Source: Brachybacterium paraconglomeratum
Lineage (GTDB): Bacteria > Actinomycetota > Actinomycetes > Actinomycetales > Dermabacteraceae
Length of the DNA stretch: 64,000 nt
NCBI RefSeq assembly: GCF_003994255.1
Contig: NZ_ML133851.1
Span: forward strand, 620,001-684,000
Reading direction: 5' to 3'
The position numbers and the translations under genes are program-made. Position 1 is the stretch's first letter, and each line of letters starts with the position of its first letter. Positions 1 to 6,320 of this stretch are shown here, piece after piece. The notes under the pieces are model-generated. The model ran no database searches, was not told the DNA's origin, and worked only from the letters and a program-made list of their open reading frames with translations.

Positions 1-217
1 GGCGCCCGATCACCTGCTCGTAGGCGACGGTGACGCCCTGCGCCCACCACTCCTCGACCTCCCACCGCTGCACCAGCATCCGTGCGATCGCGGTGTGGTC
101 GAGGTCGCGCCCGCCGGCCGCGTCGAGCCGGTCCGTCCACTCGGCCAGCGAGGTGCCGGTGCCGTTCTCGAGCCGCGCGGCGTGCGGATGGTCCTGCGGG
201 AGGATCTGGTCGCTCAT
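1..217 (-). CDS. DUF4287-like protein, N-terminal fragment (runs off window)
   Basis: The first 72 residues are visible; the gene continues beyond base 1. It starts with ATG at 217. Visible motifs are a W-T-D-R-L-D segment, a D-H-T-A-I-A-R helix and a WWAQGVTVAYEQ box. From memory, this WWAQ...YEQ box occurs in short actinobacterial proteins of the DUF4287 type, which are often followed by an SRPBCC/AHSA1 domain. The second half is outside the window, so the full architecture cannot be seen. No biochemical role can be assigned from this fragment. It is divergent from the GH3 lipoprotein gene that starts at 295. Confidence 0.6.
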   Translation of the reverse strand, partial: MSDQILPQDHPHAARLENGTGTSLAEWTDRLDAAGGRDLDHTAIARMLVQRWEVEEWWAQGVTVAYEQVIGR

Positions 218-294
218 GGAGGACACGATACGGCGAGCGCCGGGCCCGGGGACCCGGTCCGACGGGCCCGCTGCGTGCATGGAACACTGGCGGG

Positions 295-1509
295 ATGCGA
301 CGTCGTCACCTGCTCGCCCTCGCCCCCGCGGCCGCTCTCGCCGCCTGCACGGCCCCTGAGGAGGACCCCGCCTCCCCGGGCAGCGACGGCGGGGGCGCGG
401 CCCCCTCCGACGGCGGTGACGGCGGCACCGCCCCGTCCGACGGCGACCCGTCCGACGGCGAGGAGCCGACGACGACCGCCCCGCCGAGCGCCGCCGAGCA
501 GCTGCTCGAGGGGCTCTCGCCGCGCGAGATCGCCGGGCAGCTGGTCCTCGTCGGCATCGCCGCCGGCTCCGAGATCCCGCCCGCGACGTTCGAGGAGCAC
601 CACGCCGGAGGGATCTTCCTGCTGCAGGTGTGGGAGGGCGCCGAGCAGGTCGACGCCGTCGTCGACTCCGCCCTCGCGCTCGCCCGCCCCGAGCTGCCGC
701 CGCTGCTGGCCGTGGACCAGGAGGGCGGCCAGGTGCGGATGCTGCGCGGCGACGCGGCACGGGAGACGGCCTCGGCCGAGACCCTCGGCGCCGAGGGCCC
801 GCAGGCGGTGGCCGACGCGTACACGAGCATCGGCGAGGACCTCTCCGCGCGGGGGCTGCACGTGGCCCTCTCCCCCGTCGCCGACGTCGTCGACCCGGAG
901 CTCGGCGACGCGAACGAGCCCGTGGGCGGGCTGGACCGCGGCTTCGGCACCGATCCCGAGCAGGTCGCCGACTGCGTGACCGCCGCGGTCGAGGCGCTCT
1001 CCGAGCAGGGCATCGGCGCGACGCTGAAGCATTTCCCGGGCCTGGGCCGGGTGGAGCAGAACACGGACTTCTCCGCCGAGGGGATCGAGGATGCGACCAC
1101 CGGGCCCGAGGACCCGTTCCTCGAGTCCTTCCGTGCCGGGATCGACGCCGGCGCGCAGCTGGTGATGATGTCCTCCGCGATCTACCCGCGGATCGAGCCG
1201 GACGTCCCGGCGATGTTCTCCGCCGCCGCGATCCAGGACCTGCTGCGCGACGGCCTCGGCTTCGAGGGGCTCGTGGTCACCGACGACATCGGCGCCGCGC
1301 AGGCCGTCGCCGACGTCCCCGTCGCCGAGCGCGCGACCCGGCTGCTCGAGGCGGGCGGCGACGCGGTGCTCACCGCCGACCCGTCGCTGACCGGCGAGCT
1401 CGTCGACGCGATCGAGGAATGGGCCGGGCGCGGCGAGGAGCAGGAGCAGCGGGTGCGGGAGTCCGCCGGCCGGATGCTCGCGCTGAAGGAGGAGCTGGGG
1501 CTGCTGTGA
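295..1509 (+). CDS. GH3-family beta-N-acetylglucosaminidase-like lipoprotein
   Basis: A 404-residue secreted lipoprotein. The start at 295 gives a short signal peptide with arginines at 2-4 and a lipobox ending at Cys18, so it should be anchored on the outer face of the membrane. Residues 20-70 are a Gly/Ser/Asp/Thr-rich linker. The rest is a glycoside hydrolase family 3 N-terminal TIM barrel with a KHFPG motif near residue 245 and a VVTDDIGAA strand whose Asp (about 330) matches the family nucleophile. Family members of this shape (NagZ, mycobacterial LpqI) release N-acetylglucosamine from cell-wall fragments. The usual Asp-His pair after KHFPG is not obvious here (the box reads N-T-D), so the substrate is uncertain. 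It stands alone, upstream of a repeat-rich intergenic region. Confidence 0.85.
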   Translation: MRRRHLLALAPAAALAACTAPEEDPASPGSDGGGAAPSDGGDGGTAPSDGDPSDGEEPTTTAPPSAAEQLLEGLSPREIAGQLVLVGIAAGSEIPPATFEEHHAGGIFLLQVWEGAEQVDAVVDSALALARPELPPLLAVDQEGGQVRMLRGDAARETASAETLGAEGPQAVADAYTSIGEDLSARGLHVALSPVADVVDPELGDANEPVGGLDRGFGTDPEQVADCVTAAVEALSEQGIGATLKHFPGLGRVEQNTDFSAEGIEDATTGPEDPFLESFRAGIDAGAQLVMMSSAIYPRIEPDVPAMFSAAAIQDLLRDGLGFEGLVVTDDIGAAQAVADVPVAERATRLLEAGGDAVLTADPSLTGELVDAIEEWAGRGEEQEQRVRESAGRMLALKEELGLL

Positions 1510-1584
1510 CCGGGCGGCGGGTCTGGACGGGACCACCATCGGCGAGTTCCAGGAGCACGGCGCGTGCCGCCCGCTGCCGACAGG

Positions 1585-1664
1585 CATGGTCAGTTGCTGG
1601 CGTACGGCGTGCCGGTACGCCTATATAGGCGTAGTGGTACGCCGTACGCCAGCACTCGACCATG
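1585..1664. repeat. 80-bp interrupted palindrome
   Basis: A long inverted repeat centred between 1624 and 1625. Three blocks pair exactly: 1585-1591 with 1658-1664 (7 bp), 1595-1610 with 1639-1654 (16 bp) and 1616-1624 with 1625-1633 (9 bp). They are separated by small symmetric mismatched loops (1592-1594 and 1611-1615 on the left arm). In total 32 of 40 positions pair. The centre is AT-rich (CTATATAG), unlike the surroundings. It could be a cruciform or RNA hairpin, an operator, a terminator downstream of the GH3 gene, or a miniature mobile element. The sequence does not decide between these. Confidence 0.8.
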
Positions 1665-1778
1665 TCTCGACGGTGCAGGGGATGACAGCGAGCGGGAATC
1701 GGGCGCGGCCGGATGCGGCGCCGGGCCGACAGCAGCGGGCCGGGCCGCGCGCTCCGCCCGGTTCAGTCCTTCCCCCTC

Positions 1779-1937
1779 GACCGAGCTCCTACCGGCTCGT
1801 CCCTCACCAGTACGTCGCTCAGTCCTTCACCCTCGACCGAGCTCCTACCGGCTCGTCCCTCGCCAGTACGTCGCTCAGTCCCAGTCTCCTCGACCGAGCT
1901 CCTACCGGCTCGTCCCTCGCCAGTACGTCGCTCAGTC
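1779..1937 (-). repeat. Tandem array A: three 46-nt structured units, about 56-bp period
   Basis: Units lie at 1779-1824, 1835-1880 and 1892-1937. Read on the minus strand, each starts GACTGAGC and ends GCTCGGTC, which pair as an 8-bp outer stem with one G-U. An inner stem of 7 bp is TACTGGC with GCCGGTA, closing a 9-nt loop GAGGGACGA; a GACG/GGA internal loop separates the stems. The first unit contains the TGA stop codon of the ThiD-like gene. The distal end of the array repeats only GGACTGA (around 1763-1769). The one change in the copy at 1779 (C to T in the inner stem) keeps a G-U pair. A related array is at 15236-15391. Confidence 0.85.
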
Positions 1938-2807
1938 CTTGCCGAGGGTGATGAGGTGGTTCACCGGGCCGTGGCCGCCGGCGGTGCGGGAGAGGCGCCA
2001 GTCCTGCGCGTTCTCGGTCGCGCTCGCCACGAACTCGCGCGCCGAGGCGACGATCGTGGGCATGTCGTCGTCCGTGCCCGACTCGCCGATCTCCTGCAGC
2101 TCCCCCGCCCGGTCGAACTCGGCGATCCGTGCGAGCTGGGCCGTCAGCGCGGCCGACAGGGTCGTGCCCGCTCCGCGCAGCGCCCGGCCCTCGATCCGCT
2201 GCGCCCGCAGCAGATCCGTGCCGCCGGGATGGACCAGCACGTCCACGACCTCGTCGCCCGGGAGCGCGCCGCCCGTGATCAGGACGGACCGGGGCCCCTT
2301 CGCGACGAGCGCGAGCGCGTGCTCGCGCATCTCCTCGATCGAGGTCGCCACCGCCCGGCGCAGCAGCTGCGCGGACTCCCTCATGGTCAGCACCAGCACG
2401 TCCACGAGCGGGAGCAGGTCGTGCTCGATCGCCGCGGCGCCCTCCGCCGAGATCAGCGCCGTGCCGTCGGCGCTGATCATCACCGGGTCCAGCACCACGG
2501 TCCCGAAGCGCTCACGATGGGCGCGCAGCGCGGCCACGACCTCGGCGACCACGGCGGCGCTGCCCAGCGAGCCGATCTTCGTCGCGTCCAGCAGCAGCTC
2601 CTCGGAGACTGCGTCGATCTGGGAGCGCACCACCTCGGGCGGCAGCGGGTGCACCCCGCGCACGCCCTGCGGGGACGCGGAGACCACCATCGTCACGGCG
2701 CTCGCACCGTAGGAGCCCAGCGCCGTGAAGGTCTTCAGGTCCGCCTGGACGCCGGCGGCGCCGTCGGACTCCGATCCGGCGATGGACAGGACGAGGGGCG
2801 GGCGCAT
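1932..2807 (-). CDS. thiD: Hydroxymethylpyrimidine/phosphomethylpyrimidine kinase-like protein (ThiD family)
   Basis: A 291-residue ribokinase-fold protein. The start at 2807 is preceded by a GGAG Shine-Dalgarno site. The N-terminal signature AGSESDGAAGVQADLKTF matches the ThiD substrate loop, and DPVMISADGTALIS matches the core strand. ThiD phosphorylates hydroxymethylpyrimidine (phosphate) in thiamine synthesis. Two sites differ from typical ThiD: the usual TPN-x-PEA motif reads VLTMRESAQLL, and the anion-hole motif G-T-G-C-T-L-S reads GAGTTLSAA, so the catalytic Cys is replaced by Thr. The protein may be a divergent kinase with another substrate. No other thiamine gene is nearby. Its stop codon lies inside structured repeat array A. 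Confidence 0.75.
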   Translation of the reverse strand: MRPPLVLSIAGSESDGAAGVQADLKTFTALGSYGASAVTMVVSASPQGVRGVHPLPPEVVRSQIDAVSEELLLDATKIGSLGSAAVVAEVVAALRAHRERFGTVVLDPVMISADGTALISAEGAAAIEHDLLPLVDVLVLTMRESAQLLRRAVATSIEEMREHALALVAKGPRSVLITGGALPGDEVVDVLVHPGGTDLLRAQRIEGRALRGAGTTLSAALTAQLARIAEFDRAGELQEIGESGTDDDMPTIVASAREFVASATENAQDWRLSRTAGGHGPVNHLITLGKD

Positions 2808-3012
2808 GCGATCTCCATCCGACGAGTGGACCGGGTCCCGGGTGACCCGTGAGCGGAGAGTACCAACCGTCCCTGGCATCCCCCTGCCGGGACGCGGCGG
2901 CCCGGATGCCCGGCGGACGCACCCGGTCGTGGGACAATCTCCCCCGGACGGGGGTCACGGGGACCCCGTCGGGAGGCGACCGGGGACAGGGCCCGGGACA
3001 GGGGAGGTGCCG

Positions 3013-3942
3013 ATGACGCAGGAGCCGCACGGCGAGGGTGTGCCCGAGAGCGCCCCCCTGCCCGACTTCGCCTCCTCGTCCTCCCCGACGGGACTCCCCG
3101 ACTTCAGCGAGGACCACGGGCCGGCGACCCTCGGCGAGCCGAGCGAGCGCGCCCGCCACCGCACCCGGCTGACGATGATCGCCGTGATCGGCGGCTCGGT
3201 CGTCATCCTGCTCGTGCTGGCGCTGATCCTCTCCCAGACCGTATTCCGCTCCGTGCTCGAGGATCCGGACCCGTCGGCCTACTCGACCGGGCCCCGCAGC
3301 GCCGAGGGCCAGTCCGAGTACGTCCCCGATCCCGAGGACCCGGACATCGCCCCTCCCCCGCCGATCTTCACCCAGGCCCCCACCACCGAGTGCACGGTCC
3401 CGCAGAACACGACCCCGCCGCAGCCCTCCGGCGCCGGCACGGTGCGCGGCGGCGGGCTGGAGTACACCAGCCCCGAGGGCTGGGGCGACGGCTGGGCCGT
3501 CCACTCCCTGCCCTATCTCACCGAGCTCGCGGCCGACGGCCGACGGGTCGAGGGCAGCTGGTACAGCGTCGTGAACCTCGGCCGGGTCACCTTCCCCGAG
3601 GACGAGGGCGGCTATCCCGGCCTCGAGGCCGCGGCCGTCGCGATCTTCCAGTGCTACGCGACCACCTCCGGGGTCGTCTCCCACTTCGGCGAGCACCCTG
3701 AGGTGACCGACTACCGCTCCGAGGTGATGACGGTGGACGGGACCGCCGCCTGGATCGTCCAGGCCACCTACCACTTCGAGGACCCCGAGGTGCTGGACAC
3801 CTCGAGCGCCTCGATCGTCACGTCGATCGTCGTGGAGACGCCGAACGGCCCCAGCGCCCTGGCCAGCGACGTCGCCGCCGACCAGCCCGAGCATGTCCAG
3901 AACCTCGAGGACATCATCGCGAGCCTCGACGTCGTCGAGTGA
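3013..3942 (+). CDS. Single-pass membrane protein with extracytoplasmic domain (paralogue of next gene)
   Basis: A 309-residue protein of unknown function. The ATG at 3013 follows a GGGGAGG site; an in-frame GTG two codons earlier is a weaker choice. Residues 1-55 are a polar, Pro/Ser/Asp-rich cytoplasmic segment. A hydrophobic helix follows at about 56-78, then a Pro-rich linker, then an extracytoplasmic domain. That domain starts with a TVRGGGLEYTSPEGW motif and contains two cysteines. Length, single anchor and the R-G-G-G-L motif are shared with the protein encoded immediately downstream, so the two are tandem paralogues. The arrangement suggests a cell-surface or secreted-lipoprotein-like role, but I do not recognise a named family. 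Confidence 0.75.
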   Translation: MTQEPHGEGVPESAPLPDFASSSSPTGLPDFSEDHGPATLGEPSERARHRTRLTMIAVIGGSVVILLVLALILSQTVFRSVLEDPDPSAYSTGPRSAEGQSEYVPDPEDPDIAPPPPIFTQAPTTECTVPQNTTPPQPSGAGTVRGGGLEYTSPEGWGDGWAVHSLPYLTELAADGRRVEGSWYSVVNLGRVTFPEDEGGYPGLEAAAVAIFQCYATTSGVVSHFGEHPEVTDYRSEVMTVDGTAAWIVQATYHFEDPEVLDTSSASIVTSIVVETPNGPSALASDVAADQPEHVQNLEDIIASLDVVE

Positions 3943-3976
3943 CCGACCGCGTCCCGATACCCCTGCAGGAGCAGCC

Positions 3977-4774
3977 GTGCACACCGGACCGCAGTTCACC
4001 TCCACCCAGCCCTCCACCCCCGGCGGGGGCGGCGGCCGGGCGACGCCGCTGCTGATCGGCGGGATCGCCTTCGCCGCGGTGTTCCTGCTGATCGTCGGCG
4101 GCACGATCGGCTATCTCGTGCTCCGCGGGAACGGCGGCGATCCCGCCTCCGGCGGGACCACGCCCGCGACGGACCCGTCGAGCGCCTCGGCGAGCGCGTC
4201 GGCGACCCCGACGGGCGAGGTCGAGGAGGAGCGCTGCTGGCAGCCGGAGACCATGGAGCGAGCCGGCGACAACCCCTCCGGGAAGCTGCGCGGCGGGGGC
4301 CTGCAGTTCATCCCGCCCGCGGTCTACGACCAGCGGCAGACGCCCCGCGGCGTCGCCTACGTGAACGACGCCCAGGGCGCCTACGCGCAGGTCGAGGACG
4401 GCTGGTACTCGGGGATGTTCGTCGGCGCCGTCGAGTGGCAGCCCGGCATCGAGTACCCGGGCAACGAGGTCGCCTCCGAGAAGATCGTCGCGTGCTACTT
4501 CGCCGCGTCGATCTGGGGCGACACCGAGGGGCGCACGCTCGACGACCAGGTCACCGAGCCGGTGACGATCGCGGGCCTGCCCGGCTATCGCACCACCGCG
4601 ACCGTGAACTTCGCGAAGGCCCCGATGGAGAAGACCTCCGCGACGAGCCTGACGGTCATCGTGCTGGACACCCCGCAGGGTCCGAGCGTGTTCATGCTCG
4701 AGACCGCGGTCGGCGTCGCCGAGCACGAGGAGGCCGCCGCCGAGGCCCTGGAGTCCCTCACCGGCGTCGCCTGA
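3977..4774 (+). CDS. Single-pass membrane protein, tandem paralogue of upstream gene
   Basis: A 265-residue protein. The GTG at 3977 has AGGAG seven bases upstream. It has a short cytoplasmic Pro/Gly-rich N-terminus, one strong transmembrane helix at about 30-55, a low-complexity Ala/Ser/Thr linker, and an outer domain. The outer domain begins KLRGGGLQF and carries two cysteines in positions equivalent to those of the preceding protein. Both domains end in a V-x-D-T-P-x-G-P-S segment. Only 34 bases separate the two genes, so they are probably co-transcribed. Function is unknown; a role at the envelope is inferred from topology only. Confidence 0.75.
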   Translation: MHTGPQFTSTQPSTPGGGGGRATPLLIGGIAFAAVFLLIVGGTIGYLVLRGNGGDPASGGTTPATDPSSASASASATPTGEVEEERCWQPETMERAGDNPSGKLRGGGLQFIPPAVYDQRQTPRGVAYVNDAQGAYAQVEDGWYSGMFVGAVEWQPGIEYPGNEVASEKIVACYFAASIWGDTEGRTLDDQVTEPVTIAGLPGYRTTATVNFAKAPMEKTSATSLTVIVLDTPQGPSVFMLETAVGVAEHEEAAAEALESLTGVA

Positions 4775-4835
4775 GCTCCTCCCCTCGCCCGGGTCCTCCC
4801 CTGGGCCGGGCCCGCCGCTCGGCCGGGGTGCTCCC

Positions 4836-6320
4836 TCACACCACGGAGGAGGCGAGGCGGCAGAGGTTGTCGATGACCTGCATGGTGCGGGGCCGGGACT
4901 CCCACTCCTCGCGCGTCAGCTGCCGGCTGCGGGAGCGGTAGGTGTGCTCGACCTCGCGCATCTTCTCCATGAAGTCGGTGCCGCCCACCATCAGCGAGCA
5001 CTCCATCTGCAGCAGGAACGAGCGCATGTCCATGTTGGAGGAGCCGATCACGCTGACCGAGTCGTCGATCGTGACGTGCTTGGCGTGCAGGATCGTCGGG
5101 GCGCGGTAGAGCCAGATCTTCACCCCCGCGTCCAGCAGCGTCGAGTAGTAGGAGCGCTGGGCGTGGAAGACCAGGAACTGGTCGCCGATCTCGGAGACGA
5201 ACAGCTCCACCTCGACCCCGCGCCGCGCGGCGGTGATGAGGGCGGAGAGCATCGACTCGTCGGGCACGAAATAGGGCGAGACCGCGACGATGCGCCGGGT
5301 CGCCGAGTAGAACAGCTGGTTGAACAGCAGCAGGTTGTTCTCCTCGACGAAGCCGGGGCCGCTGGGCACGAGCTGGCACTCGTAGGTGCCGGAGGTGTCC
5401 GGCGAGGGCCGCACCAGCGTCTGCTCGTCGAGCATCTCGTCGGACTCGTAGTACCAGTCGGAGGCGAACAGCAGGTTCAGCTCCGAGACGATCGGGCCGC
5501 GGAAGCGGGCCATCGTCTCCTGCCAGTGCAGGCCGCGGCGGATGTTCGCGGGCTTGTCGTAGTGGGCGGCGATGAGGTTCTGGCTGCCCATCCAGCCGAT
5601 CTCGCCGTCGACGATGACCATCTTGCGGTGGTTGCGCAGGTCCGGGCGCTGGAAGGCGCCGTCGCGGAACAGACGGATCGGCATCATGGGGGCGTGCTGG
5701 ATGCCGTGGGCGTCGAGCTTCTCCCGCATCGCGCGGTATACGGCGCGGTGGCTGACCGCGCCCCAGTGGTCGTACAGCACCCGCACGGTCACGCCGGCGT
5801 CGGCCCGCTCCGCGAGCGCCTCGAAGAAGTCCTCGGTGACCTCGTCGAGGCCCATGATGTAGAAGAGCACGTGGACGCTCTCGCGCGCGGTGCGGATGTC
5901 CTCCGCCATCCGCGCGATCGAGGTCTCGTAGTCGATCTCGAGCTCGGCCGAGTTGTTGCCGGTCAGCGGGAAGGCGCCGAGCTCGCGGTTCAGCTGCACG
6001 GCGGACTGCAGCCAGCTGGGCGCGTCCTCGTCGAGCTCGCTGTCGGGGATCTCGTGGGCCCGCACCCGCAGCAGCCGGTTCACGGCCTTCTGCTTCGCGA
6101 GCCGGCGCTTCGGGAGCTGGGAGCGGCCCAGCAGCAGGAACAGCGGGAAGCCGACGATCGGCAGCACCATGATCGCCAGCAGCCAGGCGAGCGCCGAGCC
6201 GGGCCGACGGTTCCGGGGGACGACGACGAGGCTGATCAGCCGCAGGACGACATCGATGCCGACGTAGAGATAGGTCCACACCAGGGCCCAGTTGTCGAGC
6301 ACCCACTGCCACAGTCCCAT
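4836..6320 (-). CDS. cls: Cardiolipin synthase
   Basis: A 494-residue phospholipase D superfamily enzyme. Two N-terminal transmembrane helices (about 10-35 and 43-65) anchor it in the membrane, as in bacterial cardiolipin synthases. Two HxKxxxxD catalytic motifs are complete: His231, Lys233, Asp238 and His412, Lys414, Asp419, each followed by a G-S-x-N motif. The reaction joins two phosphatidylglycerols, or a CDP-diacylglycerol equivalent, to make cardiolipin. Length is typical. The ATG at 6320 has a GGAGGAG site upstream. It is convergent with the preceding paralogue pair, with only about 60 bases between them. Confidence 0.93.
   Translation of the reverse strand: MGLWQWVLDNWALVWTYLYVGIDVVLRLISLVVVPRNRRPGSALAWLLAIMVLPIVGFPLFLLLGRSQLPKRRLAKQKAVNRLLRVRAHEIPDSELDEDAPSWLQSAVQLNRELGAFPLTGNNSAELEIDYETSIARMAEDIRTARESVHVLFYIMGLDEVTEDFFEALAERADAGVTVRVLYDHWGAVSHRAVYRAMREKLDAHGIQHAPMMPIRLFRDGAFQRPDLRNHRKMVIVDGEIGWMGSQNLIAAHYDKPANIRRGLHWQETMARFRGPIVSELNLLFASDWYYESDEMLDEQTLVRPSPDTSGTYECQLVPSGPGFVEENNLLLFNQLFYSATRRIVAVSPYFVPDESMLSALITAARRGVEVELFVSEIGDQFLVFHAQRSYYSTLLDAGVKIWLYRAPTILHAKHVTIDDSVSVIGSSNMDMRSFLLQMECSLMVGGTDFMEKMREVEHTYRSRSRQLTREEWESRPRTMQVIDNLCRLASSVV

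Follow-up and report, generated by a model that had tools for sequence, protein, structure and literature searches.

A genus-level family of 80-bp palindromes in Brachybacterium, probably dispersed elements read as duplex DNA by a putative protein

In the window (the whole 64-kb stretch of DNA that was analysed), a long palindrome lies between two convergent genes, and the question that it raises is whether it ends transcripts, binds a regulator or belongs to a family of dispersed elements. The initial annotation described a near-perfect palindrome of 80 bp, 75 bp past a GH3 gene, with an AT-rich centre in a GC-rich background and with arms that pair over 7, 16 and 9 bp around two symmetric loops; it proposed a mobile palindromic element, a cruciform site or a double operator. 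This description is essentially right, as Watson-Crick matches occur at 34 of the 40 arm positions, in runs of 7, 16, 2 and 9, the GH3 gene ends at 1509, and CTATATAG occupies the centre in a window of 72.9% G+C. The distance to the neighbouring array A, given as about 115 bp, is actually 98 bp. The features of the locus are the following:

1585–1664, no strand: 80-bp palindromic element, with a conserved core at 1587–1662 (TGGTC...GACCA)
1585–1624, plus strand: left arm, 40 nt
1625–1664, minus strand: right arm, 40 nt, inverted
1621–1628, no strand: axis, CTATATAG, with a dyad ATAT conserved to 90% or more across the 39 copies of alignment A2
1589–1591, plus strand: block 1 (GTC) of the left arm, mirrored at 1658–1660, from per-column information
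1599–1602, plus strand: block 2 (GGCG) of the left arm, mirrored at 1647–1650, from per-column information
1608–1610, plus strand: block 3 of the left arm, with a sequence that depends on the species group, mirrored at 1639–1641, from per-column information and consensuses
1619–1621, plus strand: block 4 (GCC, the middle base less conserved) of the left arm, mirrored at 1628–1630, from per-column information
295–1509, plus strand: neighbouring GH3 gene (glycoside hydrolase family 3, PF00933)
1932–2807, minus strand: neighbouring thiD-like kinase gene (PF08543), convergent with the GH3 gene
1763–1931, no strand: array A, three 56-bp tandem repeats in the same GH3–thiD spacer, outside the palindrome

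The dyad axis falls between 1624 and 1625, and a gapless inverted repeat reaches 1582–1667 at 84%. No dyad of this length in the 64 kb scores higher: it has 32 of 38 pairs, the runner-up place has 26, and the best places in 20 simulated 64-kb sequences (first-order Markov) have 23–27. As RNA, positions 1576–1675 fold at −80.5 kcal/mol (z −12.9). Rfam matched only miRNA hairpin models, none of which reached its gathering score (the best has 43.1 bits against 88, E 4.7e-8), and these matches say only that the palindrome is a long hairpin. Repeats that look by eye like those of array A occur in the same GH3–thiD spacer of two other genomes (G020 and G033), so that the genus may have a second repeat family in array A.

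The palindrome is not a single-copy sequence. An 86-bp query matched further places in its own 3.78-Mb genome (G000), and two covariance models were built, R1 from 24 copies (alignment A1) and the broader R2 from 39 copies (alignment A2). R1 found matches at E ≤ 1e-3 in 19 of 38 genomes of the genus, including weak ones such as that in G034 (locus L074), which looks like chance by eye. R2 gave 34, 62 and 68 strand-hits in G000, in the sister species G027 and in G058, which correspond to 17, about 31 and about 34 loci, and at E ≤ 1e-5 it gave 32 loci in G058, 14 in G004 and 17 in G013, the last three being other Brachybacterium. The check for a single copy called for by the initial annotation has therefore returned a multi-copy family, with 17 loci in its own genome, dispersed copies in congeners, and 14 to about 34 copies in each of the five genomes closely studied. 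R2 also matched G017 and G030, both without an R1 match, which means that zero matches in a genome do not prove absence.

Beyond the genus, a sample of 198 genomes of the order, searched with stricter filters, yielded eight with matches: seven Brachybacterium and one genome of another family (G154), whose match is weak and truncated (57 bases). Barring this match, the family was found in that sample only in Brachybacterium; exact-pattern matches include Brachybacterium sp. EE-P12. Plasmids gave no palindrome match and viral contigs no exact-pattern match; a Cupriavidus hit and 22-base matches in G039 and G057 look like chance. A phage origin, raised by three records named 'Bacteriophage sp.' (MT836139.1, MT835741.1, MT836486.1), was rejected, as these are unannotated faecal contigs of 73% G+C. 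Parts of such contigs align to the own chromosome at 98.4% (L054, 4.0 kb), 94.6% (L056, 2.0 kb) and 93% (L055), which identifies them as Brachybacterium-like chromosome in the parts compared.

Along the chromosome, all 14 copies of G004 fall within 0.17–1.98 Mb of 3.80 Mb (largest-gap p 0.0018), and clustering is not significant in G013 or G058; GC skew was too noisy for placing the origin. Pairs of palindromes some 166–224 bp apart were seen at six loci (L107, L113, L116, L123, L124 and L187), those of L124 and those of L187 being identical 80-mers, and local duplications that encompass whole copies were observed as well.

The anatomy of the family is that of a symmetric site of near-constant length. 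The 39 copies of A2, cut as 80-mers round the axis, align without gaps over 80 columns, and model hits mostly span 80 bases (75, 77, 81 or 86 on at least one strand at four listed loci). When both arms are pooled within genomes, information peaks at arm columns 5–7, 15–18, 24–26 and 35–37 (36 lower), with minima at columns 1–2 (the outermost), 9, 19–21, 30 and 38. The conserved blocks are therefore spaced by about 10 bp, with peaks near columns 6, 16, 25 and 35. The best period of the profile is 9.25–10 in all five genomes, a value to be read in the light of the poor resolution of periods over 40 columns. Block shuffling gave p 0.0025 in G027, 0.0005 in G058 and 0.0005 in G004; the periodicity is marginal in G013 (column shuffle 0.045, block shuffle 0.07) and not significant in G000 alone (0.06 and 0.16). 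Over the mirrored 80 columns, power is 4.43 at a period of 10.0, 1.49 at 10.5 and 0.00 at 11.0. Few as the columns are, the spacing of about 10 bp is closer to what contacts along one side of B-form DNA would give than to the 11-bp repeat of an A-form RNA helix. A symmetric consensus with contact-like blocks at helical spacing, as in a protein site on duplex DNA, is what was found (block shuffle significant in three of five genomes).

The outer blocks TGGTC and GGCG are shared, while the inner part is variable and reads GGCGTaCC in G000, GGCGTCCC in G027, gGCGA.Gag in G058 and gGCGtGCGc in G013. A C-type subfamily is present in G000, G027 and G058. The copies compared here and below are 107 copies read: 17 from G000, 27 of about 31 from G027 (at least four hits being left unread), 32 from G058, 14 from G004 and 17 from G013; the half element of L056 was left out of alignments. 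For 88 of the 107, the nearest neighbour lies in the same genome, against a mean of 22.7 and a maximum of 39 in shuffles. G000 copies are as like G027 copies as each other (53.1 against 52.8 of 80 positions), and the nearest neighbour of 9 of the 14 G004 copies is a G058 copy; these overlaps indicate that the signatures follow species groups rather than being one per species. Co-evolution with a protein would give such signatures, and so would bursts from a small number of progenitors.

According to these data, the palindrome of the window is probably one copy of a genus-level, REPIN/MITE-like dispersed element that is read as duplex DNA by a putative protein. The copies are dispersed, near-constant in length and nearly excluded from genes and divergent spacers; they are present or absent at orthologous places, are retained at a few of them, and carry signatures that differ by species group. 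In the proposed mechanism, two 40-bp arms set head to head would be recognised as double-stranded DNA by an oligomeric protein encoded elsewhere, which would contact a single side of the double helix at four blocks in each arm, spaced by about 10 bp; identical subunits reading both arms would account for the single symmetric consensus. Copies would be spread or renewed by some activity, survive mainly downstream of genes, where they would be least harmful, and be lost by slippage between flanking direct repeats, and the neighbouring genes would terminate their transcription independently of the palindrome. A protein-binding site would fit the 10-bp periodicity, the protein and the movement being postulated from sequence.

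Several observations go against this reading: the lack of a REP transposase and of 3–9 bp target duplications (both described below), the weak periodicity in G000 and G013, signatures that are not cleanly one per species, the few hits that depart from 80 bases, and a covariation between the arms of the same copy, which duplex binding does not require. Genus-wide, 235 double-changed cells were counted against 109.7 in shuffles, with subfamilies pooled; the case for RNA-level selection drawn from this excess was rejected, as it largely vanished without C-type copies and with permutation within genomes. The within-genome test, from which 14 C-type copies (picked by eye), ORF-internal copies and exact duplicates were removed, compares the fit of an arm to its own partner with its fit to the arms of other copies. 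The own partner is slightly better in G000 (28.5 against 26.2 of 38, p 0.0003) and in G027 (29.6 against 28.5, p 0.006); the difference is not significant in G013 (p 0.08) or in G004 (p 0.21), and in G058 the own partner fits less well (24.8 against 26.2, p 0.999). Selection for RNA pairing is thus weakly supported, being clear in two of five genomes: the symmetric consensus is kept, but compensation per copy is weak. At six G000/G027 sites that are orthologous by their matching flanking genes, 26 position pairs are double-changed against 15.3 expected under independent change, and in 13 of these 26 the two positions pair in each of the two species. Two cloverleaf-type foldings within each arm were also tried and rejected, their covariation not rising above shuffles.

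The turnover of copies was followed at orthologous places. The region after thiD has a match in 31 of 38 genomes, of which 30 were read; the palindrome is present at this gene pair in two (G000 and G027), absent in 23 and unjudgeable in five. Eighteen of the palindrome-free genomes have a convergent spacer of 4–36 bp after thiD; five others (G020, G033, G017, G021 and G010) have longer spacers, still without the palindrome. The thiD spacer of G010 (L154) holds a long hairpin of another kind, with a T-run at either foot, which resembles a bidirectional terminator. Among eight orthologous sites tested (six G000/G027 and two G027/G058, the G000/G058 site C8:66423 being left out), two keep clearly alignable sequence next to the palindrome, C1:259179 on both sides and C2:197703 on one, from which it follows that some copies are old. 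In five of the six G000/G027 pairs the similarity exceeds the non-orthologous average, and in only two of the six does it exceed that to the best non-orthologous copy. A few sites thus show copies retained amid fast turnover; elsewhere, independent arrival in the same spacer may explain co-occurrence.

Two related contigs add alleles to this picture. L055 carries a copy that is absent from the own genome, a filled against an empty allele, together with imperfect direct repeats of about 30 bp, and from its sequence the empty allele looks like a product of slippage between them. In L056, an IS30-family transposase gene (about 1–313, NF033563, 116.1 bits) stops just short of a junction. The junction lies at the axis of a copy that is intact here at C1:885158, and may be an assembly join, the other end of the IS lying outside the contig.

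The suggestion in the initial annotation that the palindrome is a mobile element holds for its dispersion and for its presence or absence between species and related contigs, and is not borne out by the marks of known transposition. These same data bear on a reading as a non-autonomous transposable element (MITE or REPIN) without a host role, whose 40-bp ends would be read by a transposase and whose signatures would reflect recent bursts from few progenitors. Dispersed copies, subfamilies, lineage-specific copies, presence/absence alleles and nearest neighbours mostly in the same genome are all as it predicts. Nevertheless, no target-site duplication of 3–9 bp was found over 105 copies and 64 boundary choices, the largest excess (13 observed against 8.4) being located inside the conserved end, and the outermost columns are the least conserved of the arm. 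A REP transposase (Y1/HUH, RAYT; PF01797) was found in none of the 38 Brachybacterium genomes and in 5 of 14 control genomes, and RAYT-driven REPINs are thereby excluded as far as PF01797 detects them. A half-arm pattern, searched in G000 only, gave 23 hits that cover 23 of the 34 arms, all inside the 17 palindromes; with no hit outside them, no IS end of half-arm sequence was seen in that genome. Moreover, the alignable flanks at two of the eight sites show some copies to be old rather than recent. This account is considered rather unlikely.

Gene context was read from genes called with an own codon-usage caller trained on the window. The 107 copies comprise 56 between convergent genes, 42 between tandem genes, 7 between divergent genes and 2 in weakly called ORFs; 105 are thus extragenic, and the family consists of dispersed, extragenic, hairpin-forming inverted pairs, as REPs and REPINs do. 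As background, 800 kb of G058 and G004 contain 104 convergent and 103 divergent gene pairs, which makes the convergent excess strong (p 1.4e-10). This location, 7 divergent against 56 convergent, also disfavours the double operator that had been suggested, even if some tandem copies lie close upstream of a gene. Pfam scans of 32 of the 34 proteins that flank own-genome copies revealed no shared function and no transposase.

A bidirectional terminator, or an mRNA 3' end structure of the RNase III type, would be an RNA hairpin readable from either side. The nearest upstream stop codon is at a median of 67.5 nt (at most 100 nt for 64 of 98), the excess between convergent genes is as such a structure would have it, the hairpins are stable (mean −50.5 kcal/mol), and in 32 tandem copies of G000, G027 and G058, GU mispairs on the sense strand exceed AC mispairs by 87:63. 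In these same copies, GG exceeds CC by 59:41 and AG exceeds CT by 40:29, and the GU excess may therefore be plain purine bias; the arm covariation is reversed in G058 and not significant in G004 and G013, as given above. A T-tract (at least 6 T in 12 nt) is present at none of 140 gene-side feet. No terminator-like site was found in window positions 1–5000. Hairpins between the stop codon and the palindrome average −25.5 against −23.1 in shuffled sequence, and 77 of 127 reach −22 or below against 80 of 127, a slight difference that does not decide the matter. An ordinary terminator is unlikely given the missing T-tract, the near-constant length of 80 bp, the base-specific blocks and the lack of a palindrome between the same two convergent genes in 23 of the 30 genomes read, and the wider RNA reading, 3' end structures included, is taken as improbable.

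Least credible, and very improbable, is a mutational product of template-switch correction of quasi-palindromes and tandem duplication without selection: template switching can create and maintain stems, as described in the available part of one article (PMC8794818), tandem repeats (TRF score at least 40) occur in 62 of the 105 spacers with a palindrome as compared with 27 of 171 controls, the convergent controls giving 7 of 21 (spacer lengths unmatched), and there are local duplications including whole copies, but one length, the same blocks genus-wide and dispersed copies are not predicted by it.

The reading as a dispersed duplex-DNA site can be extended, tentatively, to 80-bp symmetric sites with eight contact blocks on one face, bound by a putative chromosome-organising or domesticated-transposase protein whose specificity would have shifted by species group with most sites following, a REPIN-like concerted evolution without RAYT; this extension is a doubtful one. 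By titles and the openings of abstracts on palindromic repeats with Brachybacterium or actinobacteria, in a literature that took in few subscription journals, no paper describing the family was found, and in the available parts of two Brachybacterium papers 'palindromic' occurs only within the CRISPR name (PMC10581053, PMC4172268). What is presented here is an Actinomycetota genus with a long palindrome family of near-constant length, yet with no RAYT-type gene, in which the inner sequence shifts between species groups across many loci and conservation recurs at the spacing of the DNA helix. Should a binding protein exist, the diverged sets of sites would form a natural series with which to look for it. 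For annotation, hairpins of this kind between convergent genes should not automatically be taken as terminators.

Dispersed bacterial palindromes are usually ascribed to REP sequences and their RAYT transposase. In high-G+C Gram-positives, intrinsic terminators without a U-tract (I-shaped) form a stable hairpin downstream of stop codons, in many cases where two genes converge; unlike them, the Brachybacterium palindrome is base-specific and near-constant in length, and most of the relatives read lack it at the same gene pair. With MITEs it shares its small size, inverted repeats, non-coding nature and dispersion, but it has no 3–9 bp target duplication, and its own genome is without a parent IS of the same ends. 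REPINs, in the available part of their description, are short, dispersed, extragenic and hairpin-capable, with two inverted halves (PMC3116915), and to that extent the Brachybacterium palindrome is like REPINs and BIMEs. It differs from them in having copies only in the tens per genome, contiguous arms of 40 bp with no variable spacer, no RAYT-type gene and no GTAG/CGTC tags: none of these tags stands at the feet, and 15 outside columns lack a conserved base in G000, G027, G058 and G013 (commonest at most 0.65). CGTC-tagged palindromic repeats, as far as the available part of their report goes, have stems of 8–9 bp and a CGTC end and are without a dedicated transposase (PMC3733652); the Brachybacterium palindrome is like them in being palindromic without such a transposase, and unlike them in having no CGTC end and arms of 38–40 bp in a TGGTC/GACCA frame. 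Finally, in what is available of their article, Tobes and Pareja described insertion sequences inserted at the axis of palindromy of REPs (PMC1525189), and the IS30-family gene at the palindrome axis in L056 resembles these REP-targeting elements.
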